Below are positions 1-23,612 of a stretch of DNA of 64,000 bases, in pieces. Made by a program: the position numbers and the translations under genes. The DNA is from Natrialbaceae archaeon AArc-T1-2 (GTDB taxonomy: Archaea > Halobacteriota > Halobacteria > Halobacteriales > Natrialbaceae), in the NCBI RefSeq assembly GCF_030273315.1, contig NZ_CP127174.1, forward strand, positions 2,480,001-2,544,000. The letters are read 5' to 3'. Under the pieces are notes generated by a model. It was not told the origin of the DNA. It was given only the letters and a program-made list of their open reading frames with translations, and did not search any database. Position 1 is the first letter of the stretch. Every line of letters begins with the position of its first letter.

Positions 1-1785
1 AACGGGAAAAGCCTGTTATTCGAACTGTTAATCCAGGTTCTCGGTGAGGAGAACACGTCAGGAACTCCGCTCTCGAAAATCGTTGATAACCGGTTCTCGT
101 CGTCAAGAGTCGTTGATCGAATGGCGAATATCGCGCCGGACATCGCCGGAACGATCATTTCGGACATTAGCGATTTGAAAGCGCACACTGGTAACGACAA
201 GGTCGAAGTTGAGCCGAAGGGGAAGCCCGCGTACGACGCGTACAACAGCGCTACGATGTTGTTCGGGGCGAATGAGCCGCCCGCGTTCGTTGAACAGTCG
301 GACGCGGTGAAAGACAGGTTGTATCACGTTGAGTTACCGTACCGTTTCGTCTCGGATCCGGACCCGGATGATCCGGCGCAGAAACAGGCTAAGTCACGTT
401 CAGAGTTACTCGATGAGCTCACGTCGGACGGTGCGCTCGCAGCAGTACTGTACCGAATGGTTGAGGGTGCACGGCGCATCCAAGTGCACGGGGATTTCAG
501 CGACGATCGAACGCCGGACGAGCGGATGGAATCGTACGAGGAGGAAGCCGATCCGATCGCGTCGCTGGCGCGTTTCGCGTTCGAGAATGACCCGAGTGCC
601 GCGGTTGCGCTCGACGACATCAAAACCTTGTACGATAAGCTGGCCCCGCAGCGTGGTTGGCCGCAGAAGGATAAGAAAACGATCGGTAAAGGACTCGGTC
701 GGTTAACGAGCTTAACGTTCTCGACCGGTCACTACTTGCGTTCGTGGGGTTCTGAAGACGGTGACCGCCCGCACGTGTACAAAGGAATCAGATTCACCGG
801 GGACGCTGTCGACACACTCGGTGAGGACACGACTCACGCGGACAGGTACCGTGAGCAGTTAGGACTCACTGACGAGTCGGGTGACGACGAGTCGAGTGAC
901 CCGGTGACGCCGCTCAACGAGTTAGAACCGGGACGGTTCGACCTTCGAGGAACGATCGATAACGTGCGTGACGAGCCGGTGCCGTGGTTGGACGATCAAG
1001 GAGTTGTGCGTGACGAGACTGACTCGTACAGGTACGAGATCGTTGAGAGTCGAGAGTTCGCGGACGCGGGCGAAGGAGCGGAAGTGCTTGTCAAGGACGC
1101 TATCGTCACGTCGGATGAAGCCGATCTTAAGATCCAAGTCGTTGCCGGGTTGACGGAAGTGCTCGTCATCGATACGGGTGACCGGGACGATGATCAGCGC
1201 CGAGTAGACGAAACCCCAGCCAATCCTGAAGAGCTTGAACCGGAATCGAGTGAAGGAGACGAAGCGGTACCAGTGCCGGAAGACGCCCTCGAAACCGTGA
1301 CTGACGAGATCGAAGGTGTGAGTGACAAGACGGGTGACTGGGAAATAACGACTGTCGAAATCGAAGGCCCTGGGAAACTCGACATGTGGTACGTCGATCA
1401 CCGTGACGTAGCGCACGATCGTGAGAGAGGACCGTACAAGGTTCACGCGCACGAGAACGGTTGGACTTGGATGTACGTCGGTGAGATGGAAATGTTCTCC
1501 CGTGCTGAGGATCGACTCGACGAATTAGTCCCTGTTGAAGAGCACATCGAACAGACAGAGACACCGGAAGCCCCGCCTCAAAGTCAGCGGAAAACAAGCA
1601 TCTACCACCGGGTTAGAAAGGTAGATGAGTCGCAGGAAGATGAAGGCGCGGACGTGTCGACAGTCGTTGCTATTGAAGCCGGGAATCTCTGTTTACACCC
1701 TTCGACAGTACAGCGAGATATTGAGTCGATGATTGAATCCGGTCGTCTCACCGAAGTCGCCGAAGGGCGGGTGATGCAATCTTGA
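1..1785 (+). CDS. D5/SF3-type replicative helicase-primase, C-terminal part (5' end outside window)
   Basis: The reading frame is open from base 1, so the gene starts left of the window. The first codons give NGKS, the end of a Walker A loop. ANIAPDIAG about 40 residues later looks like Walker B, and LFGANEPPAF at about residue 90 carries the sensor Asn of SF3 helicases, followed by an ELPYRF segment typical of the D5/P4 family. Members unwind DNA at the replication origin of viruses and plasmids. A long acidic C-terminal extension follows and ends in a helix-turn-helix-like segment (HPSTVQRDIESMIESGRL). The stop TGA overlaps the TTG start of the next gene, which suggests one transcript. Helicase assignment is fairly firm; whether a primase domain precedes it cannot be seen. 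Confidence 0.8.
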   Translation, partial: NGKSLLFELLIQVLGEENTSGTPLSKIVDNRFSSSRVVDRMANIAPDIAGTIISDISDLKAHTGNDKVEVEPKGKPAYDAYNSATMLFGANEPPAFVEQSDAVKDRLYHVELPYRFVSDPDPDDPAQKQAKSRSELLDELTSDGALAAVLYRMVEGARRIQVHGDFSDDRTPDERMESYEEEADPIASLARFAFENDPSAAVALDDIKTLYDKLAPQRGWPQKDKKTIGKGLGRLTSLTFSTGHYLRSWGSEDGDRPHVYKGIRFTGDAVDTLGEDTTHADRYREQLGLTDESGDDESSDPVTPLNELEPGRFDLRGTIDNVRDEPVPWLDDQGVVRDETDSYRYEIVESREFADAGEGAEVLVKDAIVTSDEADLKIQVVAGLTEVLVIDTGDRDDDQRRVDETPANPEELEPESSEGDEAVPVPEDALETVTDEIEGVSDKTGDWEITTVEIEGPGKLDMWYVDHRDVAHDRERGPYKVHAHENGWTWMYVGEMEMFSRAEDRLDELVPVEEHIEQTETPEAPPQSQRKTSIYHRVRKVDESQEDEGADVSTVVAIEAGNLCLHPSTVQRDIESMIESGRLTEVAEGRVMQS

Positions 1786-2309
1786 GCCGAGCGCAACGGG
1801 TCAAGTCGCGCTCAAAGTCGGCGAAGCTACGCCCGTACAAAGCTGATTTACTCGCAAATCTCCCGCGCCCTGAGTACCGGTGGCGGTGGTCTGAGTGCGA
1901 TTTGTCGCCTCGAATCCTTAATTGGCTTCGAGACCGCGGGCACGTCGAGCAGGTTCGGCGAGGTTGGTGGCGGACAACCGGAGAGATAGCCGAGTACGTC
2001 GAGAATCTGTTCGACGAGGAACTCACGTGCGAGACTGGCGTACGCGCGATCGGTGGTGAACCAGGCCGGTACGACCCCGAGCGTGATTACGAGGACCCGG
2101 CGGAATCGATCGATCCAGGAACCGCGCAGCGTACGATCGACGGTGGCGAGTACCTGCTTCCAGAGGAGTTCTGGAGTCCGTATGCGAACGCGGAAGTTGA
2201 GCAGGCGCGCGAGTCCGGGCGGGAAGGCGGGTTGAAAGCTCATCAAGATCCAGAGGATATCCCGCCCGGTCAACTCACGATCGACGATCTCACTGACGAC
2301 GAGGAGTAA
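1782..2309 (+). CDS. Hypothetical protein, possible DNA-binding partner of the helicase
   Basis: A 175-residue protein of unknown function. It begins with TTG inside the stop codon of the helicase gene (TTGA overlap), so translation is probably coupled. The first 20 residues are basic (MSRAQRVKSRSKSAK). Residues 30-70 contain a winged-helix-like stretch (SPRILNWLRDRGHVEQ followed by RRGWWRTTGEIAEY). The C-terminus is acidic and Gly/Pro-rich. Position suggests a role in replication or copy control, which is inference only. No family was recognised. Confidence 0.7.
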   Translation: MSRAQRVKSRSKSAKLRPYKADLLANLPRPEYRWRWSECDLSPRILNWLRDRGHVEQVRRGWWRTTGEIAEYVENLFDEELTCETGVRAIGGEPGRYDPERDYEDPAESIDPGTAQRTIDGGEYLLPEEFWSPYANAEVEQARESGREGGLKAHQDPEDIPPGQLTIDDLTDDEE

Positions 2310-2507: not shown

Positions 2508-2921
2508 ATGAGTGTGATTAACCTGTCCTCGAACGGGGCAGGGTACGGACGAATCGACACGGAAGACGCAATCCTCGCGCCAGCATTCTTGATCGGTTCA
2601 CTAGTGATGAGCGGTATCGCTACGATCGAAGTGTTCGGGTTCAATCTCGCGGATACGGCGTATTCCGCGGCGGGTCTTGACCCTAGCTGGGCGTTCATCA
2701 TTTCAGTACTCGCTTTAGCGGGTGCATGGGTGACGAACGAACCTGACCTCTCGAAGATGGACGACGAGTACACGTACATCGTTGCGGGTATGAGCGGTAT
2801 ACTCGTTGCTAACGAGTTCTGGGCCTACGCGCACGACTTGATCACGACGAGCGACGCAATCGGTCTCGTCGTAGTCGTGATCATGGCAGCCGGGTTCTAC
2901 GTCGTCAGCTACCTCGGGTAA
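2508..2921 (+). CDS. Four-TM small membrane protein, pleolipovirus VP3-like
   Basis: A 137-residue protein with about four hydrophobic helices (near residues 24-43, 61-76, 88-104 and 116-136) separated by short acidic loops. In pleolipoviruses the small internal membrane protein VP3 has this length and topology and is encoded just before the spike gene. The same order is seen here. It should line the inner face of the virion membrane. The call rests on topology and gene order, not on recognised sequence identity. The start is the ATG following an A-rich GACAAAAC stretch. Confidence 0.65.
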   Translation: MSVINLSSNGAGYGRIDTEDAILAPAFLIGSLVMSGIATIEVFGFNLADTAYSAAGLDPSWAFIISVLALAGAWVTNEPDLSKMDDEYTYIVAGMSGILVANEFWAYAHDLITTSDAIGLVVVVIMAAGFYVVSYLG

Positions 2922-2953
2922 TCGGGAGGTACGGACGTGAACACAATTATTTC

Positions 2954-2960
2954 GAGGTGA
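2954..2960 (+). promoter_or_regulatory. Shine-Dalgarno site GAGGTGA for the first spike-like gene
   Basis: GAGGTGA lies 7 bases before the ATG at 2968. It fits the 3' end of haloarchaeal 16S rRNA well and supports that start. The short 46-base gap after the four-TM gene suggests the two are co-transcribed. Confidence 0.6.
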
Positions 2961-2967
2961 CAAAACC

Positions 2968-5037
2968 ATGAGCAACGCACACATCGACGGACGGCAGTTG
3001 CACAGTACGGTCGGTCCCCCAGCGCGGTTCGGCGGGGTGAGTCGACGCGGGTTCTTGCGCCGGAGCGCGGCGGTGACCGCGGCAGCGGCAGCGCTCACTA
3101 CAGGGACGGTCGCGGCAGACGAGGACGGTGACGGTGAGAGCGACGACGAGGATGAGCTCGAAACCGATGAGTACCGAGTTGAGGATTACGACGATTACGT
3201 CTCTCAAGACCGGGACGTGGAGCGCTACGGGAGAGTCCCTTCCGCGCGCGAAGCTGCGCGAATGGCGCTCTTAGGAGGGACGTCGATCGGTCAAATGTCG
3301 CTAACCGCGGCGGGAGTCACTGACGCGGAAGCGAGTACGCGGGATTACGTTCACGAGTACTTTTTCGGGCCTTTCCAAATCCCAGATAGCTACACTGACG
3401 ACGAGGCTTTGATCGACGCGTGGTACGACATTTTGAGTTCGCAGCAGCAACTCGACAGAGACCTCGATTCTTGGCTCAATTCGTTCGAACCTTTAGAATC
3501 CCAAGCGCACGGTCTCATTCAAATCGAGACGATGCAAGGGATCAACGCTGGTGAGACAGCGAGTGAGATCGAAGCCAGGTGCCGGAACGCGGTCCGCAGG
3601 TTGTACTCGACGGTTGAGAACAATCTGTTCGTGTACGTTGAAGAAGCCTTACTCCGGGTTGTAGGGGATTACTTCTTGACAGCATCGAAAACGTCGTTCG
3701 GTGCTGCTCCGGATTTCTACATCCCATCAGTTTACGGGTTCGAGGATTTGCATCAGCCAGGGATGCACGTCGCGCATTGGAGGTTAATGGATGGAAGAGT
3801 CCTTGAGACCGGCGTTTCGCAGTGGCTCACTGAGGGTGGCGAGGATGATGGGGAGACGCTCTACATTCACCCTTTCATTGATTCTCATCAACTTGATTAC
3901 GCCGAGGACCGGTGGGAGTTCGTTCCTGAGGGCGACGATGAGCGTGACCGGTTTATCGTTAGCTACGAACCCCCGTCGACGATCTCAGACGAAAGTTATC
4001 GATTGTTCGAGTACGGTGACGACGATGGTGAAATGGACATACGGTCTCGCGCGCGAGACATGCTTGACCTGTTGTACGAGCAAATCCAGGTGCTTGACGA
4101 CGAGATCGAGACGTTCGTCGCGGACGCGCTCGCAGAGTACGACGCGGGTGACTTCCCAATCGAAGATGTGGACGCGACGGCGCTCGCAGAGCAAATGGGG
4201 ATCGACTGGCAGGACACTGGATTCAGCGGTTTCGCCGCTATGTCCGCGGCGGTACGCGGGTACTCGACGAACACGGATTACGGGATGGACATACATCACG
4301 TCGAGGAGGATCGAACGTACGAGGACTCGATGCTCCTACTGTTCGGCCCGTGGTCGCCTGATTCGAGCACGGTCGAGTACGACGACAGGTACGTCAGTCT
4401 CGACGCTACGGACGCCGGTGAGCATGTAGTTGTAGTCGAGGGGCCGCCGTACGACGGTGAGCATGTAGTTGTAGTCGAGGGTGAGGAACCGGTCGTAGTT
4501 CCGCGCGCGGAAATCTCGCTCGCAGGTGAGTGGGACGGTGACCCGCACAGTCTCGCGTTCGAAATCGATCTTAGCGGTGAGATCGACGCGGATGAACTCA
4601 CCGAAGAAGACATCGAGTACGTGGAAGCGACTGTCGATGAAGCTGTAGTCGCTGGAGAAACGTACACGATCCCCGGTGAGGACGACGAGGAGTACGGTGA
4701 CGAGTACATCCAGGCGTTCGTGTCCACGTCGGACGGTCTCACTGAGATTCCGCGGAGTGACGAAATCGAGATTGAAGCGATTCGGAACGTTGACGGTGAG
4801 CCCGTGGATTCGATGGCGTTCAGGCAGGGCGGTCAAATCGAGTTAGACACGAACGCGACTGAAGAGATTCTCACGCGGCACTTGTGGACGCAAAGCCGTC
4901 ACCAAGAGGCAGGCGGTACAGCGCCCGGGTCGAGCCCGAGCGGTGACGGTGGTCCGAGTACGGGCGTTCTCGCGCTCGCGGCGGGCGGGGTGCTCGCGGC
5001 GTACGCGTACGCCAGAGGCAAAGAGGGAGGTGAGTGA
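2968..5037 (+). CDS. Tat-exported, C-terminally anchored spike-like protein (paralogue 1)
   Basis: A 689-residue surface protein. A twin-arginine signal (SRRGFLRRS at residues 25-33 and an Ala-rich helix) is followed by a probable cleavage near AA49-50. The C-terminus has a Gly/Ser/Pro linker and a membrane helix (about 660-682) with a basic end. The middle is very acidic and rich in Tyr and Asp, as expected for an exposed haloarchaeal protein. It sits where pleolipoviruses encode the VP4 spike. The segment with GFAAMSAAVRGYSTN matches GFAASLAAWIGYATN in the next gene, so the two are tandem paralogues. A 13-residue tandem duplication occurs near residues 484-505. It would bind host receptors or fuse membranes if this is a virus. 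Confidence 0.7.
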   Translation: MSNAHIDGRQLHSTVGPPARFGGVSRRGFLRRSAAVTAAAAALTTGTVAADEDGDGESDDEDELETDEYRVEDYDDYVSQDRDVERYGRVPSAREAARMALLGGTSIGQMSLTAAGVTDAEASTRDYVHEYFFGPFQIPDSYTDDEALIDAWYDILSSQQQLDRDLDSWLNSFEPLESQAHGLIQIETMQGINAGETASEIEARCRNAVRRLYSTVENNLFVYVEEALLRVVGDYFLTASKTSFGAAPDFYIPSVYGFEDLHQPGMHVAHWRLMDGRVLETGVSQWLTEGGEDDGETLYIHPFIDSHQLDYAEDRWEFVPEGDDERDRFIVSYEPPSTISDESYRLFEYGDDDGEMDIRSRARDMLDLLYEQIQVLDDEIETFVADALAEYDAGDFPIEDVDATALAEQMGIDWQDTGFSGFAAMSAAVRGYSTNTDYGMDIHHVEEDRTYEDSMLLLFGPWSPDSSTVEYDDRYVSLDATDAGEHVVVVEGPPYDGEHVVVVEGEEPVVVPRAEISLAGEWDGDPHSLAFEIDLSGEIDADELTEEDIEYVEATVDEAVVAGETYTIPGEDDEEYGDEYIQAFVSTSDGLTEIPRSDEIEIEAIRNVDGEPVDSMAFRQGGQIELDTNATEEILTRHLWTQSRHQEAGGTAPGSSPSGDGGPSTGVLALAAGGVLAAYAYARGKEGGE
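4417..4481 (+). repeat. In-frame 39-bp tandem duplication in the spike-like gene
   Basis: A 26-base block coding GEHVVVVEG appears at 4417 and again at 4456, identical at nucleotide level, with a 39-base period (13 codons, GEHVVVVEGPPYD). Exact identity points to a recent duplication or gene conversion in a surface-exposed region. Confidence 0.9.
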
Positions 5038-5039
5038 TC

Positions 5040-7217
5040 ATGGCACGAAACACAGAGATTCACGACACGGTGGGGATCGATCGACGAACGTTCATGAAGG
5101 CTTCAGCGGCGAGCGCACTTGCGGCGGGAGCGCTCGCTAGCGGAGCGAGCGGTAGTGTAGCCGCTCAGGAGGATGGAAGCTCGGTCTACGACCGTGATCC
5201 GTGGGGGTTCGACGGTGAAGAGCAGTCCACGGCGAGTACGTACGTTATGTCGCTCATGGACGCGTTCGACGCTTCGAGCGAGTTCACCGGCGGTGAACCC
5301 GGGTTCTCGACGCTTTGCGACTGGTTGTACGGGGAGTTCGACCCGGACGATCCGGACGATCCATCGAGTGTCGAAGCGGCAGCGTACCATCACGGTCGCG
5401 GTGTGCGCGATGTCGCGGACGAGGTTTGGCTTACGCTGCACGAAATCGTCGAGGACGTCGAGAATCACGCGATCACCGCCGCAGTGCGCGAAACCGCGCG
5501 TGCATTAGAGGAGAATCGGTCAGAGTCCGAAGCTCGCGGGTTAGCGCGAGGCGCGGCGATCGAAGCAATGATCCCGTGGTGGACCGCGGGCGTGATGCAA
5601 ATTAGTTCGTGGTTCCAGCGCGCTCACGATCTGGCCGAGGCTCAACGCGCCGCGGGTGCGAGCGAGAACGAAGTAACGATCCGGAACGCGGAATTGTCCG
5701 GTCTCGGTGACGCGCGAGCGTACGATCTTATCGAGTTCTCCGTCTCCCCGCTCGACACGGATTTCGACCCGTTCACCGCACTCGCGTTAGTGTTCCGTAC
5801 CCCTGAAGACGAAGACGAGGATCAGGGTGTCGAGTACGAAGTGTTCTCCCCGTTCTTCCACGACAATTGGACTGACGATGAGTCGAACAATCTCATCGAT
5901 TACACGTCCGATCTCGAAAGCAAGGTTGACGCGTACGAGCAGTCGATCGACGAGGATTACGACAACTTCCGAACGAACGATCGGCAGGCGGACGGTACCA
6001 GCTCAGGAACGATTGAGGATCCTGTACGAGTAGAGCAACTCGACGCGGATAACGGCGAGTTCGGTCTCGCGCCGCGAGATGCTTTCGCCGAGTTGTTCGA
6101 TTCTGGCGAGTTCAGCAACCGTTACATTCTGCCGAAATCGTTTGTTACAGAGTTCAACGACCGCGTTTTCGAGACTCGTAGCGCGGTTGAGGATCTTGTG
6201 AGTGACGCGTACGCGGTTCACGAGCGCGGTTTGTCGCTCCCGTTCGAGGACATGATCGAGCCTTCGAGTTGGGTCGAGTCAGTCAGTAAGGACTGGATGG
6301 ACACGAGTCACGACGGGTTCGCCGCGAGTCTCGCCGCGTGGATCGGTTACGCGACGAATCTTGAACTCGACATGACCGTGAACGTCGGCGGTGAGACGGT
6401 CGAAGGGGTGCTCGCAGCGGGGCGAGACGTCGAAGTCGCCGAGCACTTCGACGAGCACGAGTTGAACACTGGCACGTTCACCTACGACGATGAGGAACTC
6501 GACGTTGAATGGTCGACGCACACGAGCAGCGACGACGCCGAGCAAGACCCAGTCGCAGTCCCCAGAGGGTCGATCATTAGTGTCCGCGTGGATCCAGGTG
6601 AGACTGACGCCGAGATCACCGAGTACACGTTCGAAATCGAGGGTGTAGACGGTTCGTTCTCGGGCGAACCTGTCGATCTCGACGGTGTGTATGAGGGAGC
6701 GATTGTCCCGGGTCAACTCATCGACGCGATGGGTGCGGAAGGCGACGAACACACTATCTCTGGCGAGGTAGTGATTGAAGAAGAGGAGGGTACAACGACT
6801 CGAAGCATCGACGAAGTTACGATCGAGCTCATCGACGATCCTGAAGAGGACTGGCGGATCGGTCGAGAGTACGAGCAAATGACCGGGTTCGTAGCTACTG
6901 GCAACGGTCTGTACGAGTTCGACGACGAGGACGTGACGGTCGAGTCCGTGATCAACGCGGACGGAAACACGGTGATCGACGGGTGGATCGAACTCCCCCA
7001 CGCGAACACGCAGTCGTTCGAAACGGACGACCTCGAAGCGGACATTGAGCGCGCTGTGAAAGCTCAGGAAGGCACGATTGAGCATCACGCGTCGAGCGGC
7101 GGTGGCGCGGTCGTTGACGCGGGCGACGGTGGCAGTGGCGGTGTGAGTCTCGCGGCGGTCGGCGCGGGCGGACTCGGTATCGGCGCTGTTTGGGCGTTTC
7201 TTCGATCCAGACAGTGA
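5040..7217 (+). CDS. Tat-exported, C-terminally anchored spike-like protein (paralogue 2)
   Basis: A protein of about 725 residues. The ATG is preceded by GGAGGTGA at the end of the upstream gene, a good Shine-Dalgarno; a GTG two codons earlier overlaps the upstream stop. Signal: DRRTFMKASAA, then Ala/Gly-rich residues to AAQ near 43. The C-terminus is Gly-rich with a single TM helix and the tail FLRSRQ. Like the preceding protein it is acidic and Tyr/Asp-rich and shares the GFAA...GY-TN segment, so it probably arose by tandem duplication. Two large surface proteins could form a hetero-oligomeric spike or alternative receptor binders. Known pleolipoviruses more often have one major spike. Confidence 0.7.
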   Translation: MARNTEIHDTVGIDRRTFMKASAASALAAGALASGASGSVAAQEDGSSVYDRDPWGFDGEEQSTASTYVMSLMDAFDASSEFTGGEPGFSTLCDWLYGEFDPDDPDDPSSVEAAAYHHGRGVRDVADEVWLTLHEIVEDVENHAITAAVRETARALEENRSESEARGLARGAAIEAMIPWWTAGVMQISSWFQRAHDLAEAQRAAGASENEVTIRNAELSGLGDARAYDLIEFSVSPLDTDFDPFTALALVFRTPEDEDEDQGVEYEVFSPFFHDNWTDDESNNLIDYTSDLESKVDAYEQSIDEDYDNFRTNDRQADGTSSGTIEDPVRVEQLDADNGEFGLAPRDAFAELFDSGEFSNRYILPKSFVTEFNDRVFETRSAVEDLVSDAYAVHERGLSLPFEDMIEPSSWVESVSKDWMDTSHDGFAASLAAWIGYATNLELDMTVNVGGETVEGVLAAGRDVEVAEHFDEHELNTGTFTYDDEELDVEWSTHTSSDDAEQDPVAVPRGSIISVRVDPGETDAEITEYTFEIEGVDGSFSGEPVDLDGVYEGAIVPGQLIDAMGAEGDEHTISGEVVIEEEEGTTTRSIDEVTIELIDDPEEDWRIGREYEQMTGFVATGNGLYEFDDEDVTVESVINADGNTVIDGWIELPHANTQSFETDDLEADIERAVKAQEGTIEHHASSGGGAVVDAGDGGSGGVSLAAVGAGGLGIGAVWAFLRSRQ

Positions 7218-7232
7218 CTCTCAATCCCTGTC

Positions 7233-7318
7233 TCTAAAATTTCTGGTTGCGTGTGGTTGAACGGACGTTACAGGCCTTCTAACCCTTGTTTGTGGAGGGG
7301 GCGCGACTGTGAGTCTCG
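7233..7318 (+). repeat. Intergenic repeat R1, copy b
   Basis: TCTAAAATTTCTGGTTGCGT, CAGGCCTTCTAACC and GCGACTGTGAGTCTCG occur in the same order and spacing as in copy a at 2314-2400. It begins 16 bases after the stop of the second spike-like gene and precedes the next small-gene operon. Two copies thus flank the VP3-like/spike block, which makes that block a potential cassette for homologous exchange. Confidence 0.8.
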
Positions 7319-7353
7319 CGGAAGCGACTGACAGTCCGCGCCGGTACTGGCAG

Positions 7354-7375
7354 ACCCTAACCCGTCTCTTGGGGG
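7354..7375 (+). promoter_or_regulatory. Element-specific promoter/operator-like motif (copy 2)
   Basis: CCCTAACCCGTCTCTTGGGG with one flanking A, beginning 45 bases before the ATG at 7399. The same distance (40-45) is found for copies before 10354, 11163, 14440 and 15599. The constant spacing argues for a promoter element read by an element-encoded or host factor. No classical TATA box is obvious within it. Confidence 0.65.
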
Positions 7376-7398
7376 ACTGTAGTCTATGTTATCTTGTA

Positions 7399-7563
7399 AT
7401 GATACCAGTAGCAGCATTGAAACTGGTTCCTTTCGAGGAACTCGTCGTAGTCGCGGCGGCAGTCGTTATCCTCGAATTCGCTGGGGTGCCAGTCATCAGC
7501 ACCGCGTGGAACCTGTTGATCGAGTTCGTGCAAGCGATCGTTGACGAGGTGAGCTTCACGTGA
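7399..7563 (+). CDS. Small hydrophobic membrane protein
   Basis: A 54-residue protein, starting at the ATG that gives MIPVAALKLVPFEELVVVAA; longer upstream starts would run through the promoter-like motif. Two hydrophobic stretches are seen. Its stop overlaps the GTG of the next gene (GTGA), so the genes are probably coupled. It lies between the spike-like genes and the conserved membrane genes. Function unknown; a minor virion membrane protein or holin-like role is conceivable. Confidence 0.55.
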   Translation: MIPVAALKLVPFEELVVVAAAVVILEFAGVPVISTAWNLLIEFVQAIVDEVSFT

Positions 7564-8168
7564 GTACTGTGAGGCGCGCGCAAATCCTCGCAGGCGCGGT
7601 TCTACTCATCATAGGAGTGTTGGCGCTCACGGTCATTCTCGGCGCTCCAGTAGCCGCGCAAGAAGGCGAGGACGTGACCGAGAACGCGACTGACGAGATC
7701 GAAGGCGCGCTTGAGTACGAAGAGAGGATCGACGCGACAACAGTGGTGAAGGATTGGCATTACGACTCGAATTCGGAAGAGTTCGTGATCACGTTTCACA
7801 GCGACCGGTCATCGCTCGTAACGATTTCTGAAGTCATTATCCCCGAAGACAGCGACGGGGAAGAATCCGGGCGTTTCTCTGTTGAACGCGTCTCTGTCGA
7901 TCGAGGAGAAACGACTGTACACTTCGACTCAACCGATCGAGGAGACGGGACTTTCCTATCATTCACAACCAGCGACTCTATCAGACAGGGAACTGGCGCG
8001 TGGATAAGCACGTACGAATCAGACAGTGACCTCGAAGTACTGACGTACGTGAGCGAACCGTTCGCTTGGGCGGGCGGGACACTCATCGGTGTTAGCGCGT
8101 TCCTATTCGGGTTCTGGCGGAAAATCCGGAAGCGGAAGAGCAAGAAAGTGGTGAAAGCACAACCATGA
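7560..8168 (+). CDS. Signal/TM-anchored exoprotein, pleolipovirus ORF6-like
   Basis: A 202-residue protein: N-terminal signal or anchor helix (residues 7-30, ending APVAAQE), an acidic beta-rich outer domain, a C-terminal TM helix (about 170-188) and a strongly basic tail (RKIRKRKSKKVVK). In pleolipoviruses a conserved gene of this size and architecture lies between the spike and the ATPase gene. The GTG start overlaps the stop upstream and its own stop overlaps the ATG downstream, so this is a tight operon. Assignment is by order and topology. Confidence 0.6.
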   Translation: MSTVRRAQILAGAVLLIIGVLALTVILGAPVAAQEGEDVTENATDEIEGALEYEERIDATTVVKDWHYDSNSEEFVITFHSDRSSLVTISEVIIPEDSDGEESGRFSVERVSVDRGETTVHFDSTDRGDGTFLSFTTSDSIRQGTGAWISTYESDSDLEVLTYVSEPFAWAGGTLIGVSAFLFGFWRKIRKRKSKKVVKAQP

Positions 8169-8956
8169 CAGGCACTCAACCAACGTTCGAATCGAAGCGA
8201 GATTACGCCGTGTACCTGCTCGGTGAACACAAGTTAATCGTAGCAGGCGCGCTCATCGCAGCAGCGATACTAATCGCTTACAGAGGCATCGACGTTTCAA
8301 TCCCACCGTGGGCGGCAGCGTTCAGTGTAGCGTACATCCTGTTCGGTATCCCCGCGTACCTCGCAGGATCGAACACGGGACGCCGGTTTGATGTGCAGGA
8401 ATGGGAGCGCGTATTCCACATTAACGGCGCGACTGACGAACGTGAGCTGTATTTCGTCGAGAAAGAGTACTGGCAAGAGAACAAGGAAGTAACCGGCCCA
8501 CCGCCACGTCGAGTGAACGACGAGCAGGACTTCGAAGCCAGGAAAGTCGAGTACATGGACGACGTCGACAAGATCCGAGTGCAAGGTTCCCGGTTCGATG
8601 AGACGAAAGACGGTGACATGGTTTCGTCACGAACCCTGGTTAAAGAGATTCACGAGACGCTCGAAGACTCTCACGCGAAGCTCAAGGATATCAGGGACAA
8701 GTGGTCTCGAATGTCGATCGATATGAAGGAAGCGACGATCAACCAAATCGCGGAAGGCTTCGAGCGAGGTGTGAACCCGGGGAGTGGGAAGGTTCAAGCG
8801 ATTTGGAAGGAAGCTGAGCAGGATTTAGACGAGCAAATCGATGAGGAAATCCCGGGAATCACGCACGATCACGTAGCTGAGGACGACGAGGTTTGGGACG
8901 CGTACGTCGAGAACCCTGAGTCTCCCGAGTCGAACCCGGGCGAAGAACGCCCCTAA
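8165..8956 (+). CDS. Two-TM protein with soluble helical C-domain, pleolipovirus ORF7-like
   Basis: 263 residues. Two TM helices near the N-terminus (about 20-37 and 43-62) are followed by a long charged cytoplasmic or virion-internal domain rich in predicted helix (DMVSSRTLVKEIHETLEDSH). In pleolipoviruses the gene directly before the ATPase encodes such a protein. It may couple the membrane to the ATPase. The ATG overlaps the previous stop (ATGA). Confidence 0.6.
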   Translation: MTGTQPTFESKRDYAVYLLGEHKLIVAGALIAAAILIAYRGIDVSIPPWAAAFSVAYILFGIPAYLAGSNTGRRFDVQEWERVFHINGATDERELYFVEKEYWQENKEVTGPPPRRVNDEQDFEARKVEYMDDVDKIRVQGSRFDETKDGDMVSSRTLVKEIHETLEDSHAKLKDIRDKWSRMSIDMKEATINQIAEGFERGVNPGSGKVQAIWKEAEQDLDEQIDEEIPGITHDHVAEDDEVWDAYVENPESPESNPGEERP

Positions 8957-8971
8957 CCCGTCTTAACCGGG
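8950..8971 (+). promoter_or_regulatory. Element-specific promoter-like motif (copy 3, overlapping a stop codon)
   Basis: CCCCTAACCCGTCTTAACCG spans the stop codon of the two-TM gene and begins 52 bases before the ATG of the ATPase gene. It could give the ATPase an additional promoter inside the operon. The right half diverges from the consensus, so confidence is moderate. Confidence 0.5.
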
Positions 8972-9001
8972 TTCGAGTGCTTGTTTTACGTAGGTGATTC
9001 G

Positions 9002-10141
9002 ATGAGTAACAGTAGCGGTAACGATAACGAAGTGTACGTCCCGTCTCAGGCGCGAGAATGGCAGGAAGGGAACGGTCACAGGCCGAATCAAGAGGTTCTC
9101 CCGCACGCGGGAGTGATTAAGGATCCGAAGGTTCGTCGAGCGCTCACGCTCATTTTCAACTTCTACGACCCGTACGAATGCAAGCGACCGGATTTAATGC
9201 CGGAGCACGCTCGGGACTTGGATATTGTTCGGAAGATCCTTGCAGCGCACGGTACCGAGACGCTCACGGAAGCGATCGGTACGGGCGACATCCCGCAAAT
9301 GCGGCACATGATGGGTGACACGACGCAGAGAGCCGACATTTCGGGTGTCCGCGCAATCGACGACATTGACGATCTCATCGACGTGAGCGTTCTCCTTTGG
9401 TACATTTACGGGTTCATGGGGAAGGGGAAATCCAGCTTTGCTATGTTCACTGGGGAACGGTGGAAGCGGTACAACCCGACCGGTGAAATCGGGTCGAACA
9501 TTCGGGATTTCGACGCGAAAGACGAGTGGATCGACAGTTACGGGACTCTCGACCAGTGGCTCAAAGAGAAACCGGACACGCCTAAACTGTTCATTTTCGA
9601 CGAGGCGAACAGTCACGCGGGCGGTCACGGTCGAGACGGTCATGAGGCGAAGACGAAGCTCGGTCCGATGATCTACAAGATCCGGAAGTGGTCGGGGAAC
9701 ATGATCATTATCGGGCACGACGGGAAAGACATCACTCCGCTCGTGCGAGAGTTAGCGACGATCGTTCACAAGGAGGGAACCAAGGATGCTTCTTTCTACC
9801 AGTCGATTCGGAACCGGAATCCGGAGGGTATCATTCAGGAAGTCACTGGTATTCCGGACACTCGATGGGATTTCAACGACGAGGAGGCGACGGATTGGAG
9901 TTGGGAAGATTACCGTGAGATCGATAACGACGAGCACACACCGGATCACTCGACCGGCGAGTTAGCGCGTGAAACGGCGATTTACACAGTGATTCGAGGG
10001 AAGCAACAAGGCATGACAAACGAAGCATTGGCGGAATTCGTGCCTTTCAGCGATGAATGGGTGCGTCTACGCTGGAAGGATTACGACGAGCACGGAAAGT
10101 ACCAAGATATCGTTGGGAAGGTAGAGGACACAATCAAGTGA
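9002..10141 (+). CDS. P-loop ATPase, pleolipovirus VP8-like
   Basis: A protein of 379 residues. Walker A is GFMGKGKSSFA near residue 139 and Walker B is KLFIFDEAN near 197. A sensor-like IIGHDG follows near 240. A helix-turn-helix-like segment close to the end (EALAEFVPFSDEWVRLRWKD) may bind DNA. It is the last gene of the structural block, as VP8 is in pleolipoviruses, where an NTPase is thought to act in assembly. The ATG is chosen because GGTGA lies before it; an upstream start would add seven residues. Confidence 0.7.
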   Translation: MSNSSGNDNEVYVPSQAREWQEGNGHRPNQEVLPHAGVIKDPKVRRALTLIFNFYDPYECKRPDLMPEHARDLDIVRKILAAHGTETLTEAIGTGDIPQMRHMMGDTTQRADISGVRAIDDIDDLIDVSVLLWYIYGFMGKGKSSFAMFTGERWKRYNPTGEIGSNIRDFDAKDEWIDSYGTLDQWLKEKPDTPKLFIFDEANSHAGGHGRDGHEAKTKLGPMIYKIRKWSGNMIIIGHDGKDITPLVRELATIVHKEGTKDASFYQSIRNRNPEGIIQEVTGIPDTRWDFNDEEATDWSWEDYREIDNDEHTPDHSTGELARETAIYTVIRGKQQGMTNEALAEFVPFSDEWVRLRWKDYDEHGKYQDIVGKVEDTIK

Positions 10142-10311
10142 CAGCGGCGAGTTCTAACAACCCAAGCAACAACCCCTCCCCTACGTAGTAATAGGAACAC
10201 TGACCGCAGGGAAGTGTGAAAATGTAGTTTTGTGGTTTCAGCCATATATTAGTGAAATTAAAGAGGAGTAGATATATATCACGCGCGAAGCGCACGCGAT
10301 GCGCGAGAGAG
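10142..10311 (+). other. AT-rich gene-free stretch, probable terminator/promoter region
   Basis: The stretch after the ATPase gene holds no convincing ORF. It contains AT-rich runs (CATATATTAG and GATATATATC) that resemble haloarchaeal TATA elements, then GCGCGAAGCGCACGCG, a GC-rich inverted segment. It separates the structural operon from the nuclease genes. Confidence 0.5.
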
Positions 10312-10333
10312 AGCCTACCCCGTCTCTTGAGCG
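10312..10333 (+). promoter_or_regulatory. Element-specific promoter-like motif (copy 4)
   Basis: GCCTACCCCGTCTCTTGAGC, starting 42 bases before the ATG at 10354. It follows the AT-rich run GATATATATC by about 40 bases. Confidence 0.6.
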
Positions 10334-10353
10334 ATCGATCCGTACAGTCGAGT

Positions 10354-10497
10354 ATGAGCGAGAACGACGAAACGCGCGAATCGGCAGACTCGACCGACGA
10401 GGAACCCGATTCTCCCGGGTCGAACCCCGGGGGAAGCACCGGGAAGATAAGGTTGCAAGTTCGCGGAATCGAGGGAGGGGACGATCATGCCGAGTAA
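10354..10497 (+). CDS. Small acidic protein upstream of the nuclease-like gene
   Basis: 47 residues (MSENDETRESADSTDEE...), very acidic at the N-terminus with a Ser/Pro/Gly middle. The stop TAA lies inside the start region of the next gene, an 11-base overlap that suggests coupled translation. A real gene is supported by the promoter-like motif 42 bases upstream. Function unknown. Confidence 0.55.
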   Translation: MSENDETRESADSTDEEPDSPGSNPGGSTGKIRLQVRGIEGGDDHAE

Positions 10498-10933
10498 TCA
10501 GACAGTCGGTCGATCGTCGAAGCGAGCGCGAGTCGGCGCGGCGATCGAAGCGTGGGTGTGCAAGACCTACGGGTTAATCCCGGATCATAGCAAGAAAGCC
10601 GACGCCAGGTACAAGAACGGAACCCCAGTCGAAATTAAAGGGTGCATTCACAGGAAGAGCAACGGTCGAGGGGGAACGAAAGAAGGCGAGTTCTTCATTT
10701 ACGAACACGCTCACAAGTGGCTCAGACGGAGCGACGGGTACTACGTGTTTGTTGTGTACGAGATCGGATCAAACGGGAGTACGGTGTTAGACGTCGATGG
10801 GATGAAAATCTCGATCGTTGCGAAACAACGCCGTCACGCGAGCAAGCTCCCGTACTTCCGGTTTCACGAGTCCGGTCATCCAGGACGGAATAATGAGCGT
10901 GAGAAGCGGTTCAAAGTCAGTGATATCTTCTAA
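10487..10933 (+). CDS. PD-(D/E)XK-like nuclease (putative)
   Basis: 148 residues, basic for a haloarchaeal protein. Asp in ADARYKNG followed by VEIKGC gives the D...ExK pattern of the PD-(D/E)XK fold, preceded by a helix (RVGAAIEAWVCKTYG), a layout like small Holliday-junction or Mrr-like nucleases. Viral resolvases and repair nucleases share it. The catalytic pattern is visible; substrate is not. It sits downstream of the structural operon with its own small leader gene. Confidence 0.55.
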   Translation: MPSNQTVGRSSKRARVGAAIEAWVCKTYGLIPDHSKKADARYKNGTPVEIKGCIHRKSNGRGGTKEGEFFIYEHAHKWLRRSDGYYVFVVYEIGSNGSTVLDVDGMKISIVAKQRRHASKLPYFRFHESGHPGRNNEREKRFKVSDIF

Positions 10934-10936
10934 CCC

Positions 10937-10961
10937 CTCAAAATTTTGTAGTTGTAGTTGA
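10937..10961 (+). repeat. Post-stop AT-rich repeat, TTGTAGTTGTAGTTG type
   Basis: CTCAAAATTTTGTAGTTGTA follows the stop codon of the nuclease-like gene by three bases. A close relative is at 16331 and weaker ones lie at 12855 and 19985. It resembles the first block of R1. A terminator (T-run) or short regulatory repeat is likely. Confidence 0.6.
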
Positions 10962-11122
10962 AGCGCGACGCGGGACGGGGAACCACTCCCGCCCGCGGTC
11001 AGGTGAGTTAGTCAGTGTCGAATGGGTCGAACAGGCTCCAGTACCACTTGACGCGCCGAAGCGCGCCGAGAAAGTGTTGTCCGTCGTCGAGTATGAACGG
11101 TTGGATTTTGACTCAGAAATGA

Positions 11123-11162: not shown

Positions 11163-11723
11163 ATGGAGGCAGTGTACGTCGACACAGACGGTCGAACACC
11201 CCTCGAAAAACCTGTGGAGGAACGACTCAGATTCGAAAACCGGTTCATCGAAAAAGTCGATATCCCTACTGGCGAGGACGGCGAACCGGATCGAGAAGCG
11301 TGTTGGGAATGGACAGCCGGAACCGACCGTTACGGGTACGGTCAGTTTTTCGTCGGATCGTTAACGCCGCCAAATGGCGATACTGACATTGCTCACCGAG
11401 TGGCGTATCGACTCTGGCACAACGTCGTTCACATCGAGGGGGAGTGCTTAATGCACGAGTGCGACAATCGTCGATGCTGTAATCCGCACCACCTACAAGC
11501 AGGATCCCAGCAGGAAAACATCGATCAGGCGAGCGAGCAAGGGCACATGTCCGTGAAAGGGGTCGATCGTAAGGACGGGTTCAGCGAGGACGAGATACGG
11601 GAAATTCGCCGGTTGAACGACGACCCGGACTGGGTTCAAGCCGAAATCGCTGAAGAGTTCGATGTGAGTACGACCGCGATTAGTAAGATCGTGCGCCGGG
11701 AATCGTACGCGTACGTCGAGTAG
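11163..11723 (+). CDS. HNH endonuclease with C-terminal helix-turn-helix
   Basis: 186 residues. The HNH fold is seen as IAHRVAYRLWH, then CLMHECDNRRCCNPHHL with His and Cys metal/structure residues, near residues 76-113. The C-terminus holds a DNA-binding helix-turn-helix (WVQAEIAEEFDVSTTAISKI). This two-part layout is that of phage-type free-standing homing endonucleases. It would cut DNA near its own locus and help it spread. An ATG is chosen over the GTG eight codons earlier, which lies in the promoter-like motif. Confidence 0.8.
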   Translation: MEAVYVDTDGRTPLEKPVEERLRFENRFIEKVDIPTGEDGEPDREACWEWTAGTDRYGYGQFFVGSLTPPNGDTDIAHRVAYRLWHNVVHIEGECLMHECDNRRCCNPHHLQAGSQQENIDQASEQGHMSVKGVDRKDGFSEDEIREIRRLNDDPDWVQAEIAEEFDVSTTAISKIVRRESYAYVE

Positions 11724-16326: not shown

Positions 16327-16330
16327 CCCC

Positions 16331-16407
16331 CTCAAAATTTTGTGGTTGTGGTTGAAAACAGGCGTTTCAGGGGTGTTAGGAGTGCGAAAACAGACGTTTC
16401 AAACGCC
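16331..16407 (+). repeat. Post-stop AT-rich repeat with GGCGTTTCA / GACGTTTCAAACG half-sites
   Basis: CTCAAAATTTTGTGGTTGTG follows the recombinase stop by four bases, as at 10937. It is followed by AACAGGCGTTTCAGG and AACAGACGTTTCAAACG. The same two blocks (AACAGGCGTTTCAAAC and AACGGACGTTTCAAACG) are found at 20011-20060 next to the other recombinase. Recombination or operator sites are plausible. Confidence 0.6.
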
Positions 16408-19790: not shown

Positions 19791-19817
19791 ACCCTAACCC
19801 GTCTTAAGGGATAGTAG
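19791..19817 (+). promoter_or_regulatory. Element-specific promoter-like motif (copy 8)
   Basis: ACCCTAACCCGTCTTAAGGG followed by ATAGTAG. Unlike other copies, no start codon follows at 40-45 bases; a run of hairpins does. TAAGGG-ATAGTAG-CCCTTA in this copy can itself form a hairpin. It is either the promoter of an RNA or an operator for the leftward small gene. Confidence 0.55.
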
Positions 19818-20045: not shown

Positions 20046-20060
20046 GACGTTTCAAACGTC
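20046..20060. repeat. 15-bp palindrome GACGTTT-C-AAACGTC beside the recombinase gene
   Basis: A near-perfect palindrome at the stop codon of the full-length recombinase, preceded by AACAGGCGTTTCAAAC at about 20011. Related half-sites are at 16355 and 16387. It could be part of the attachment or a recombinase-binding site. Confidence 0.5.
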
Positions 20061-21024
20061 ACATATTGAACGCGTCACGCCTCAACTCTCGCTTCTGCTG
20101 TTCCGATCGAACGTCGTAATGATCCGAAATCACTCTCTCGCTCACGTCGAACCTCGAAGCTAAGAGAGATGGATCATGTCCTTGGTCGAGCCAAGCGGTG
20201 ATTGACGATCGGCGGATATCGTGAGGGGAGACAGCTTTCTCGCACTTCGAGGAGTAATCCGCACAGTCACACGTTGAAGAGTAATCCGAACAGTCCGTGA
20301 GACGATACACTCGACGACGAATCGTTGATCGAGCCATTCTACCGTACCGAGTCGTGAGTAGACTAGATCGGTTGAAGTCGTCAGTAGAGTCGATCCGGCG
20401 ATCCTCGATGTAATGTTTGAGGAGAGAACATACCCACCCGTGCAGATTCACTTCCCTTTCTGACCCGACTTTGTTCTTGAGGGGAGTGTGGGTCTCTGGC
20501 CGGTGGTTGAGTTCGATATACATTTCGTCGAGATGCAAATCCTTTAGATCGAGTGATCTGAGCGCGCCGATCCGTACTCCCGCTGTCCAGCAAAGCGCCA
20601 GGATTACGTGGTCGATCGACGCGTACTCGTAGCGCTCTAGCTCATCGAGGAGTGCCCCCGCCCGGTCAGCCGAGATTGATCGGTCGCGCGCTTTACCCCC
20701 GCGAGTCGGGAGTACAATCGATTCGGACAGATCGTTCCCGGGAACTCCCGACCAACCCATTCTCTCGACGAAACGGAGGAACAGGCGAACGACGCTTAGC
20801 TGGTTGTACATCGTATTACTGTTAATCTCGTCAGCCCGTGCGCGGCGGAAGCGAGAGATGTGAATCGGTTCGATCGACTGTAGTCGACTCACCCCCACGC
20901 GCTCACACCAGAGACGGAATTGCTTTAGCTGATAGCGATGGTTTTGAATCGAACTCGCAGAGAGTTCCGTCGATCGTTCAGTCAGGTACGCTTCAATCGC
21001 TTCTTGAGGTGTTACGTCGGTCAT
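20059..21024 (-). CDS. Full-length tyrosine recombinase / integrase
   Basis: 321 residues. An N-terminal core-binding (SAM-like) domain (TPQEAIEAYLTERST...) is followed by the catalytic domain: Arg in AGVRIGALRSLDL near 175, SPHDIRRSSI near 266, and the nucleophile Tyr in ISDHYDV near 304. All key residues are visible, so it is probably active and the best candidate for integrating this element. The insert TDCSDYSSTCDCADYSSKC is Cys-rich and unusual. The ATG giving MTDVTPQ is preferred over a GTG ten codons upstream. Confidence 0.85.
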   Translation of the reverse strand: MTDVTPQEAIEAYLTERSTELSASSIQNHRYQLKQFRLWCERVGVSRLQSIEPIHISRFRRARADEINSNTMYNQLSVVRLFLRFVERMGWSGVPGNDLSESIVLPTRGGKARDRSISADRAGALLDELERYEYASIDHVILALCWTAGVRIGALRSLDLKDLHLDEMYIELNHRPETHTPLKNKVGSEREVNLHGWVCSLLKHYIEDRRIDSTDDFNRSSLLTTRYGRMARSTIRRRVYRLTDCSDYSSTCDCADYSSKCEKAVSPHDIRRSSITAWLDQGHDPSLLASRFDVSERVISDHYDVRSEQQKRELRRDAFNM

Positions 21025-21054
21025 GGTCTTACGACCGACTGGATGCGCCGTCAC

Positions 21055-21383
21055 ACGGTCCGTGAGCGAGCGCGCCGAGACTTGTGATCTATTCGAGGCT
21101 ACAGCCAGCCCCCTTCACCTGTAGTCGGAAGCCCGCGCAGCGAAGCGAGCAGGAACCGATATCGGCAGTCGGTGGAAGCGGAGCGCAGCGCCGAAGGCGC
21201 GAGCACCGAACCGCGAAACCGCGTGGAGCGAAGACCGAATCCTGCCCCAACCCACTCGCTCACTTCGTTCGCGAGAACCCACAGATAGCGTAGGGACGTT
21301 TATAGGTAGTTCCAGCATTGACAAGCTAGATTCCCTCAAGTCCCCCTATCGGGGGTCGTCGCCGTTGTGCGGTTATACAAAAT
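21055..21383. other. Gene-free spacer between recombinase and IS element
   Basis: About 330 bases without a supportable gene. The centre is low-complexity and rich in GCG/GAGC (GCGCAGCGAAGCGAGCAGG). There are an inverted pair CTCGC/GCGAG at 21256-21276 and a hairpin CCCCC-TATC-GGGGG at 21342-21355. TAGGGACGTTTATAGG at 21291 recalls TAGGGACGTTTGTGAG at 15526. The missing C-terminal part of the neighbouring truncated integrase was not found here. Confidence 0.5.
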
Positions 21384-22309
21384 GCTTTGTTGAATAGCTG
21401 CTGAACGATGGTTAGAGTGGCTCACAGAGCTTTTCTATGTTGATGATGGCGAACATGAGGACAATTTCACGGAACTGTCGATACCAGCCCAGCGCTCGCA
21501 CGGCATCGCCGAGCGAGCGCTTCGTTGTCGAGTACGACGTTTCGGCCATCCAGCGCTGAGCGTAGCCTTTTGTCCGGATAAGCGTGTTGTTCCCTGTCGT
21601 GAGTGGTTTCGATCCACGCTGTAAGATCAGTGGTTCGACACCGAGGGCGTAGAACTCGTATTTGGTGTGCCAGTTGTGGAAGGCTTTGTCAGCAGCGACG
21701 GAAAGCAGGTCGTCCGCGTTCCGGCGGACGACCTGCGGCCCTGTCTTCGTATCGTGTTTCCACCGGGCTGAGATATGAACGTCAAGAACTGCAAGAGACT
21801 CTACATCGGTTAATGTGGTCACTTTCAGCGTCTGCACGCTATTCCCGGATCGCTGACGGTAATACGATGATGCAGCGTGTCGGTCGAAGAACGTACTGTC
21901 GAGAGCGACGTGTCCAGACTGCGGGTGTTGCTGCGCTGAAACGCGCAGCAACGCCCGCCACACCCACATTTTCAGCCGATCGAACGACTTGTAGATCGTG
22001 CTGTAATCCGGCAACTCGTCCTGATCGAGGCCAAGTACGTCACGAACCTCAGACATGTACTTCAGCCGGTTCGGCGTTTCACGGTAGCTATGGCCCTCTT
22101 CGAGCCGAAAACAGTGCAAAACGACATGTACCCAGCGGGCGAACCCGCCGCTGGCGGGCTCGCCCGCGTGCTTCCCCAACGCTTGTTTGGCTAGGTCTCG
22201 ACACTGCTCAACGAAGTCGAGGATATCGATTTCCATACCAACCTCGATTTCCTCGACTTCATCCTTCTAACCCGTGATATCAGCTGATTAGATCGCTCTT
22301 CAACAGAGC
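21384..22309 (-). mobile_element. IS5-family (IS903-like) insertion sequence
   Basis: Left end GCTTTGTTGAATAGC and right end, read inward, GCTCTGTTGAAGAGC form imperfect terminal inverted repeats (13 of 15 match). The GCTTTGTTGAA core is typical of the IS903 group of IS5. The element of about 926 bp carries one transposase gene that fills most of it. No matching target duplication is seen at the flanks, so a flank was probably deleted or exchanged after insertion. Confidence 0.8.
21412..22236 (-). CDS. IS5-family DDE transposase
   Basis: 274 residues, full length for the family. Catalytic Asp in HVALDSTFFDRH (near 115), second Asp in LSVAADKAFHN (near 186), and Glu in RWMAETSYSTTKR, the conserved R...E...K signature of IS5 transposases (near 240). 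It moves the surrounding element by cut-and-paste. The frame is intact. Leftward, like the integrase it interrupts. Confidence 0.9.
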   Translation of the reverse strand: MEIDILDFVEQCRDLAKQALGKHAGEPASGGFARWVHVVLHCFRLEEGHSYRETPNRLKYMSEVRDVLGLDQDELPDYSTIYKSFDRLKMWVWRALLRVSAQQHPQSGHVALDSTFFDRHAASSYYRQRSGNSVQTLKVTTLTDVESLAVLDVHISARWKHDTKTGPQVVRRNADDLLSVAADKAFHNWHTKYEFYALGVEPLILQRGSKPLTTGNNTLIRTKGYAQRWMAETSYSTTKRSLGDAVRALGWYRQFREIVLMFAIINIEKLCEPL

Positions 22310-23245
22310 ACGATCTTCGGTATCGATATCCGTAAGGTTACAAAGCCGAGTCAGAAGATGCTTCAAGGCGCGTGAGCGGTACTGATTTCCTTGTCGTGTG
22401 AGCCACAACGCCTCCGAATCATCGTACATCGGGATCGTCTCCCGCTGTTTGATCCATTTATCCAATACATCGGCTGTTCTTGTTTGAAGGCTCACGATCC
22501 AGTTGTCCCTGTTTTTCGAACTCTCCTCTTTCGGGATACGAAGCACATTATTGTCGACGTCTACCCATGACGGTGTCGCTCGAGCTACCTCGATTGGTCG
22601 TAATCCAGCATCCAAGCTTACGAAGACTAATGATGGAATCTTCCACCCGTTGGCACGATCCCAATCGTCAGGCGTAACCTCCGATTTGGGTTTCTCGAAA
22701 CGCTGAGCTAAATAGATCCGCCAGCGCTCGCGTTCTTCGGGTGTAAGACTATTATACGATGGAATCGATCCATATTCGAGAGTGGCTTCACGAATTTTAC
22801 TTCGTTCCTCACGAGTCAGAAAATCTCTCGGCTGGGACGAACCACCAGAATTGAAGCGGATATCTGGCTCCCACTCATCGAGTCCATGCTTGTGATGTCT
22901 CCACTTCAGCAGCATCTGAACTGCCTTCTGGCAGTTATCCTTGTGGGCGTTGCTCTTCTCCTCGTATGCCAATTCCTGCATCCACCCATCCGCGTGCTCG
23001 TGAGTTACATCAGCGACATATCGTCCTTCTTGCTCCCAGACCCACCGGTAAAACATGTCCATCCGGTATGCTCTAGCCCGCACTGTCTCGAAGGCATACC
23101 CATTGACTTTGTCTGGATTCTTCCCGAACGTGAGCAACCACTTGAGACAGTCCTCACGTTGGGACCGATAGTCAGATAGTTGACGTTCGTTGAGCAATTC
23201 TTCGCTTGGTTCCGTGACTACCGTGATACCGTCCAGATCGGTCAT
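22280..23245 (-). pseudogene. Truncated tRNA-adjacent integrase, C-terminus replaced by IS end
   Basis: 321 codons remain. The core-binding domain and first catalytic Arg (DAGLRPIEVARA) are present, but the HxxR box and nucleophile Tyr are gone. The reading frame enters the right end of the IS after DTEDR and ends with ALLKSDLIS encoded by IS sequence. It is therefore inactive. The ATG giving MTDLDGITVV is used; the frame open upstream reaches into the tRNA gene and is not coding. Position next to the tRNA 3' end marks it as the integrase that used this attachment site. Confidence 0.85.
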
Positions 23246-23410
23246 GATTGCCCCCTGAATCTTACATCGAATGTGATTGCCGGGGCAACAACATGAACCG
23301 CAAGACGGCGTCGGGGTAACACGGCTTCGATTACGTGTTTGCCCTGTGGCATCGTATTCACCTGAGGTTAGCCACGGACCAAAACCGCAAGACGAGAAAG
23401 GGATTGGGAT

Positions 23411-23484
23411 GCTCCGACGGGGATTTGAACCCCGGTCATTGCCTCGAGAGGGCAATATGATTGGCCGGACTACACTATCGGAGC
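23411..23484 (-). tRNA. tRNA-Glu (anticodon CTC)
   Basis: Read on the minus strand, GCTCCGA pairs with TCGGAGC as acceptor stem. TTGCC/GGCAA closes a loop CTCTCGA with anticodon CTC, and the T arm is GGGGTTCAAATCCCC. CCA is not encoded. The 3' end faces the mobile element, the usual orientation when a tRNA is the integration target. No second copy of the 3' half was found inside the window, so the far attachment site lies outside. Confidence 0.93.
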
Positions 23485-23612
23485 CCACGTCGCTTACACT
23501 CGCTCGTTACCCGCTGGACTGTTTAAGGGTTCCGTTTCGGCCCCGGGCTGTCGGGGACTGACACCCACGGAAGGCTCGTGATTGGGTCGGGAAATCGTTA
23601 CAGCGGACCGCA

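Follow-up and report, generated by a model that had tools for sequence, protein, structure and literature searches.

The known pleolipoviruses have genomes of 7-17 kb (PMC7547991, PMC10919331) and nearly all have been reported with very narrow host ranges (PMC10599561). Pleolipoviridae share a collinear block encoding a VP3-like protein, a spike, ORF6, ORF7 and an NTPase, and are further marked by a V-shaped spike fold and a virion that is a pleomorphic lipid vesicle. His2 and the Archaeoglobus virus AvPV1 are precedents for a second spike-like gene in this structural block (PMC10919331). The same block was present in an integrated element of a 3.36-Mb haloarchaeal genome. The window, meaning the whole 64-kb stretch of DNA analyzed (G000:C1:2480001-2544000), contains all but the left end of this element. 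Taken as a whole, the element, about 25.2 kb long, is very probably a temperate pleolipovirus-like provirus, and particle formation is predicted.

Table 1. Features of the element, with positions in the window.
Feature	Position	Strand	Evidence
D5_N/DUF5906 helicase/primase-like protein, 943 aa, C-terminal part	1..1785	+	Pfam, PHROG
175-aa protein, overlaps helicase gene	1782..2309	+	208-aa gene at equivalent G142 position
VP3-like membrane protein, 137 aa	2508..2921	+	phrog_3232 6e-31
Spike 1, 689 aa, RR (Tat-type) signal, C-terminal TM	2968..5037	+	phrog_2231 1e-15
Spike 2, 727 aa, RR (Tat-type) signal, C-terminal TM	5034..7217	+	phrog_2231 4e-11
Upstream motif copy 1, CCTAACCCGTCTC	7356..7368	+	motif scan
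Small membrane protein, 54 aa	7399..7563	+	71-aa orthologue, equivalent position, G142
ORF6-like protein, 202 aa, signal + TM	7560..8168	+	phrog_1938 9e-28
ORF7-like protein, 263 aa, two N-terminal TMs	8165..8956	+	phrog_3526 3e-60
Further CCTAACCCGTCTC copies	8952, 10314, 11124, 14400, 15556, 19793	+	motif scan
NTPase, P-loop, 379 aa	9002..10141	+	phrog_1979 3e-114
ORF8-like protein, 148 aa	10487..10933	+	phrog_2095 4e-32; HHPV4 ORF16 control
HNH endonuclease-like protein	11163..11723	+	phrog_1872 2e-25; start revised from 11139
RNase H-fold 3'-5' exonuclease-like protein, 209 aa	11730..12359	-	Pfam RNase_H_2 4e-6
Short tyrosine recombinase, 224 aa	15652..16326	+	Pfam Phage_integrase 8e-11
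Eco57I/TaqI-type restriction-modification (R-M) protein, 1026 aa	16451..19531	+	Pfam Eco57I 3e-28
Tyrosine integrase beside attR	20059..21054	-	Pfam Phage_integrase 4e-10
attR, 17-bp copy of tRNA-Val(CAC) 3' end	21242..21258	+	sequence repeat

Element Boundaries and Integration

The element is 25,199 bp long and runs from the 3' end of tRNA-Val(CAC) to attR. The final bases of this tRNA gene, CTGCCCCAACCCACTCG, form attL (L004:11043-11059), left of the window, and have a single further copy, attR. The integrase gene lies about 190 bp from attR and its product shares 37% identity with the HRPV9 integrase and 36% with the SNJ2 integrase. The GC content drops from about 0.65 to 0.55 beside tRNA-Val(CAC), a short way outside the left edge of the window, and is 0.556 in the element compared to 0.657 in the right-hand flank. 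The att repeat, the neighboring integrase and the GC drop bear out the original prediction that the module belongs to an integrated element.

Just beyond attR (window 21412-23488) a DDE transposase and a second tyrosine integrase adjoin tRNA-Glu. This second integrase is 40% identical to the integrase at the tRNA-Leu of genome G142, described below. Both genes were taken to belong to something other than the element. Inside the element a 29-nt direct repeat (93%) was seen at 10934-10962 and 16328-16356, each copy directly after a stop codon, with an AT-rich inverted core CAAAATTTTG. It could be a terminator, an att site or something else.

Structural Module

Homologues in window 2508-10933 follow the order VP3-like, spikes, small TM protein, ORF6, ORF7, NTPase, ORF8-like. 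The genes, order, lengths, topologies and Walker motifs first described from the letters of the sequence were all found in place. The expected VP3-VP4-ORF6-ORF7-VP8 order held, except that one spike had been claimed and two are present.

The VP3-like protein is 36% identical to HHPV4 VP9, a homologue with four predicted TMs (PMC5867852). Four TMs had been proposed for the 137-aa protein itself and were recovered, three on a full scan and the fourth near residue 98 on a C-terminal scan. The start of the small TM gene was moved from 7309 to the ATG at 7399 by comparison with the G142 orthologue, giving 54 aa and not 84, and a repeated motif stands just upstream of this start. Identity was 26% between the ORF6-like protein and HRPV-12 ORF5 and 36% between the ORF7-like protein and HHPV4 ORF13. 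The best start of the NTPase is the ATG at 9002, in agreement with the predicted 379 aa, and its Walker A and B motifs are GFMGKGKS and LFIFDE. A tblastn search with the NTPase as query in a set of 50,697 phage records returned 26 matches, every one to a pleolipovirus, the best being HHPV3, HHPV4 and Harhisp1 (46.5%). The position of the ORF8-like protein downstream of the NTPase is conserved in betapleolipoviruses.

On profile searching the ATPase, ORF6-like and ORF7-like proteins all matched pleolipovirus families and not secretion systems. As a control, HHPV4 VP9, VP11, ORF12, ORF13, ORF14 and ORF16 and two HRPV-12 proteins were assigned to the matching PHROG families. Pfam gave nothing above cut-offs for the structural proteins.

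Stops and starts overlap at three junctions (5034/5037, 7560/7563, and 8165/8168). Intergenic gaps precede 2968, 7399 and 9002, the last two containing the repeated motif. The suggestion of a single operon was therefore upheld at the three overlaps but not across the three gaps.

Relatives Among Haloarchaeal Genomes

The NTPase family was matched in 242 of 391 sampled genomes of the class, an upper bound as weak matches occur in control genomes too. Pleolipovirus-like proviruses are thus ordinary in these genomes. The NTPase tree (76 rows) gave the element a single close relative, that of G142 (L125), with 77% identity over the tree columns and support of 100/100. Scans of the viral_contigs and genome_contigs collections found no close relatives.

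The G142 locus (L144/L145) adjoins tRNA-Leu. Its order is integrase, 993-aa helicase, 208-aa protein, four-TM protein, 927-aa Tat-type spike, small TM protein, ORF6, ORF7, NTPase, TatA-like protein, ORF8-like protein, R-M protein and short recombinase. The two proviruses are alike in their NTPase (75%), ORF8-like protein (61%), short recombinase (54%, the G142 protein being 229 aa), ORF7 (51%) and helicase (36%), and also in having an R-M gene (24% identity between the products) and tRNA linkage. G142 differs in its single 927-aa spike, its TatA-like gene, its upstream motif and its integrase, which is of another type and lies beside tRNA-Leu.

TatA-like proteins directly follow the NTPase in G142 (L145:5059-5307) and G242 (L140:14050-14253). 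Both genes are in pleolipovirus-like proviruses with Tat-type spikes, where a Tat component carried by the virus would accompany a spike dependent on Tat; the element has no TatA-like gene. Further NTPase homologues were seen in the host genome at G000:C1:3036837-3037985 and G000:C1:1344690-1345163. One of these has a full Rep gene nearby (betapleolipovirus-like) and the other is partial.

Two Tandem Spikes

By sequence profile, both large proteins are homologues of the VP4/VP5 spikes of known Pleolipoviridae. Spike 1 matched HRPV-12 VP4 at 2e-4. Against 8 known pleolipovirus spikes the spike 1 profile scored a probability of 98.8% and the spike 2 profile, with two relatives included, 99.7%. 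A profile made from spikes 1 and 2 alone scored 97.9% against known spikes. A sequence search of solved structures returned only an HRPV-type VP5 (E 0.011). Models built on an alignment of the two window paralogues only had a pLDDT of 30 for both.

Spike 1 aligned to spike 2 by BLASTP with an E value of 3e-10. Similarity was clearest around residues 380-450 and the proteins differed elsewhere. Judged by sequence, the two are paralogues. The spike of genome G078 is nearer to spike 1 (31%, E 1e-69) than spike 2 is, so the pair did not arise by recent duplication. Two full-length spikes were found in one of 73 spike-bearing loci, namely this element, in a survey drawn mostly from loci with strong NTPase matches and under-sampling distant groups.

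Other candidates were rejected. In L078 and L122 the spike matches span two ORFs that adjoin or overlap, and each pair was read as a single spike split in two. L064 and L066 each encode another large surface protein (597 aa and 647 aa), neither of which matched any spike by BLAST. The L064 protein (L064:7417-9210, genome G078) is repeat-rich, GLUG-like by eye, with an RR motif near the N-terminus, and belongs to a distant pleolipovirus-like module, in which it separates the spike from the ORF6-like gene.

As the spikes resemble each other mainly in a central stretch, the pair would most likely serve either to recognize two kinds of receptor or to divide attachment and fusion between them. If both are on the virion, the element would test whether two spikes broaden or split host recognition and fusion.

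Replication and Accessory Genes

The helicase/primase gene starts outside the window, 1046 bp to its left (L004:13954). The N-terminal 549 aa matched Pfam DUF5906 (2e-16) and D5_N (8e-6), and a match to phrog_864 DNA primase (9e-56) was also obtained. The betapleolipovirus Rep family phrog_3288 had three matches in the host genome and none inside the element, where a D5/DUF5906-type helicase/primase replaces Rep. No polymerase was found among the large ORFs scanned, only the 209-aa exonuclease-like protein. Small membrane proteins are also encoded downstream of the structural module.

In G142, G357 (29%) and G326 (34%) a helicase homologue immediately precedes the structural module. The G357 and G326 NTPases are distant from that of the element. 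At three other helicase-bearing loci no pleolipovirus genes were seen. The simplest reading is an exchange of replication modules among pleolipovirus structural modules, and a D5-type helicase directly upstream here and in three other proviruses adds evidence for it.

Repeated Upstream Motif

Allowing one mismatch, seven copies of the 13-nt motif CCTAACCCGTCTC were counted in the element, all of them on the plus strand, compared to 0.005 expected in letter shuffles. With two mismatches there were 10 matches in the whole window vs 2.25 in dinucleotide shuffles. Start codons follow 38-50 nt downstream of six of the seven copies (7399, 9002, 10354, 11163, 14440, and 15594), and no obvious gene comes after the copy at 19793. 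One other match was present among the loci compared (1.6 Mb including the window), and none was found in the viral_contigs collection. When the other proviruses were scanned for repeats of any kind, most of those returned were tandem or codon-biased. An RNA hairpin at the motif copies was rejected, the folding being not clearly stronger than in shuffles. Haloarchaeal transcripts are often leaderless, so the motif would occupy the promoter position, suggesting that it acts as a promoter.

The G142 sister has no CCTAACCCGTCTC. It carries CCGGGAACCCSSTATTTACGAGCA instead, in similar copy number and nearly all on one strand. Start codons, where present, are 42-48 nt downstream and include those of the small TM gene orthologue and TatA. 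The two motifs are wholly unlike each other in proviruses with 75% identical NTPases. It is possible, if somewhat doubtful, that these proviruses represent a new lineage of pleolipoviruses whose members each use a promoter/operator signal of their own, 13-24 nt long and 38-50 nt ahead of start codons, which would probably be read by a fast-changing virus-encoded factor. Spikes would be shuffled in this lineage, the tandem pair here being an instance.

Alternative Explanations and Proposed Life Cycle

Haloarchaea commonly have Tat export and P-loop NTPases, and the module could in principle be a vesicle or secretion system of the host with no link to viruses. This is extremely improbable, as the genes are collinear, each falls in a pleolipovirus family, and they lie within an element that is bounded by a tRNA and has an integrase. 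A provirus that is decaying or has been domesticated, keeping its structural genes for vesicles or for exclusion of related viruses and making no infectious particle, would fit an element beyond the known genome size range and a 224-aa recombinase that may be a fragment. Vesicle-mediated plasmid transfer is also known in haloarchaea (PMC10818511). However, every core gene is an uninterrupted reading frame that retains its conserved motifs, the att sites are intact at both ends, and the recombinase is kept at similar length in the G142 sister, which makes decay unlikely.

The element, at 25.2 kb, is larger even than Harhisp1, deposited at 19.5 kb, and because it exceeds the known size range some of its length may be cargo or come from a second element. 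It might be a composite island, in which a plasmid-like element, the source of the helicase, HNH nuclease and R-M genes, had received or joined with a smaller pleolipovirus. Related helicases are found in elements that lack pleolipovirus genes, the host flank beyond attR contains a transposase and a further integrase, and the 29-nt repeat at 10934 and 16328 brackets an accessory block. Against this, the G142 provirus, located at a different tRNA, has the helicase, structural module, R-M gene and short recombinase in a similar order, which argues that the combination was inherited as a unit. A composite origin is considered quite unlikely.

As a temperate provirus, the element would have been recombined into the chromosome by a tyrosine integrase, with the 3' end of tRNA-Val(CAC) as the site, and excision is presumed. 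The excised circle would be replicated by the D5/DUF5906 helicase with a host polymerase, and not by Rep. By homology, the structural module would yield a vesicle-like virion with the VP3-like protein lining the membrane. The two spikes would be exported folded through Tat and anchored by their C-terminal helix, and ORF6, ORF7 and the NTPase would act in assembly.

Comparison With Known Pleolipoviruses

Gammapleolipoviruses encode a protein-primed family B DNA polymerase; the scan of large ORFs found none in the element. The gammapleolipovirus His2 and AvPV1 resemble the element in having two spike-like genes (PMC10919331). Their second copy is divergent, however (HHpred 87.9% in AvPV1), whereas both spikes of the element are full length, Tat-type and BLASTP-homologous.

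The proposed Epsilonpleolipovirus was compared by its published description. Its members have large spikes, HNH nucleases are common and one has a P4-like primase (PMC10599561), all recalling the element. They differ by description in an abnormally large ORF6 (PMC10599561), whereas that of the element is of normal size at 202 aa, and the element NTPase falls with the betapleolipoviruses. In L064 and L065, which look epsilon-like, ORF6 is 495-501 aa.

HHPV3, HHPV4 and Harhisp1, drawn from Betapleolipovirus and its relatives, share with the element the order and homology of the VP3-like, spike, ORF6, ORF7, NTPase and ORF8-like genes and a related integrase. They differ in having one spike without an RR signal, a phrog_3288-family Rep where the element has a D5-type helicase, and smaller genomes of 11.6-19.5 kb. 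The Rep marker of Betapleolipovirus, a homologue of HGPV-1 ORF14 and SNJ2 ORF19 (phrog_3288, assigned by HRPV-3 ORF9), is absent from the element. The second conserved downstream ORF of the genus, taken to be the phrog_2095 protein, is present. The NTPases of the element and G142 also lie inside the Betapleolipovirus clade (support 92/96, exact placement loose), outside the HGPV-1/HRPV-9/HRPV-12 group. Lacking one defining feature of Betapleolipovirus and one of the proposed Epsilonpleolipovirus, the element is best treated as a pleolipovirus-like provirus without genus assignment. On these sequence comparisons the element and G142 probably found a new lineage beside Betapleolipovirus.
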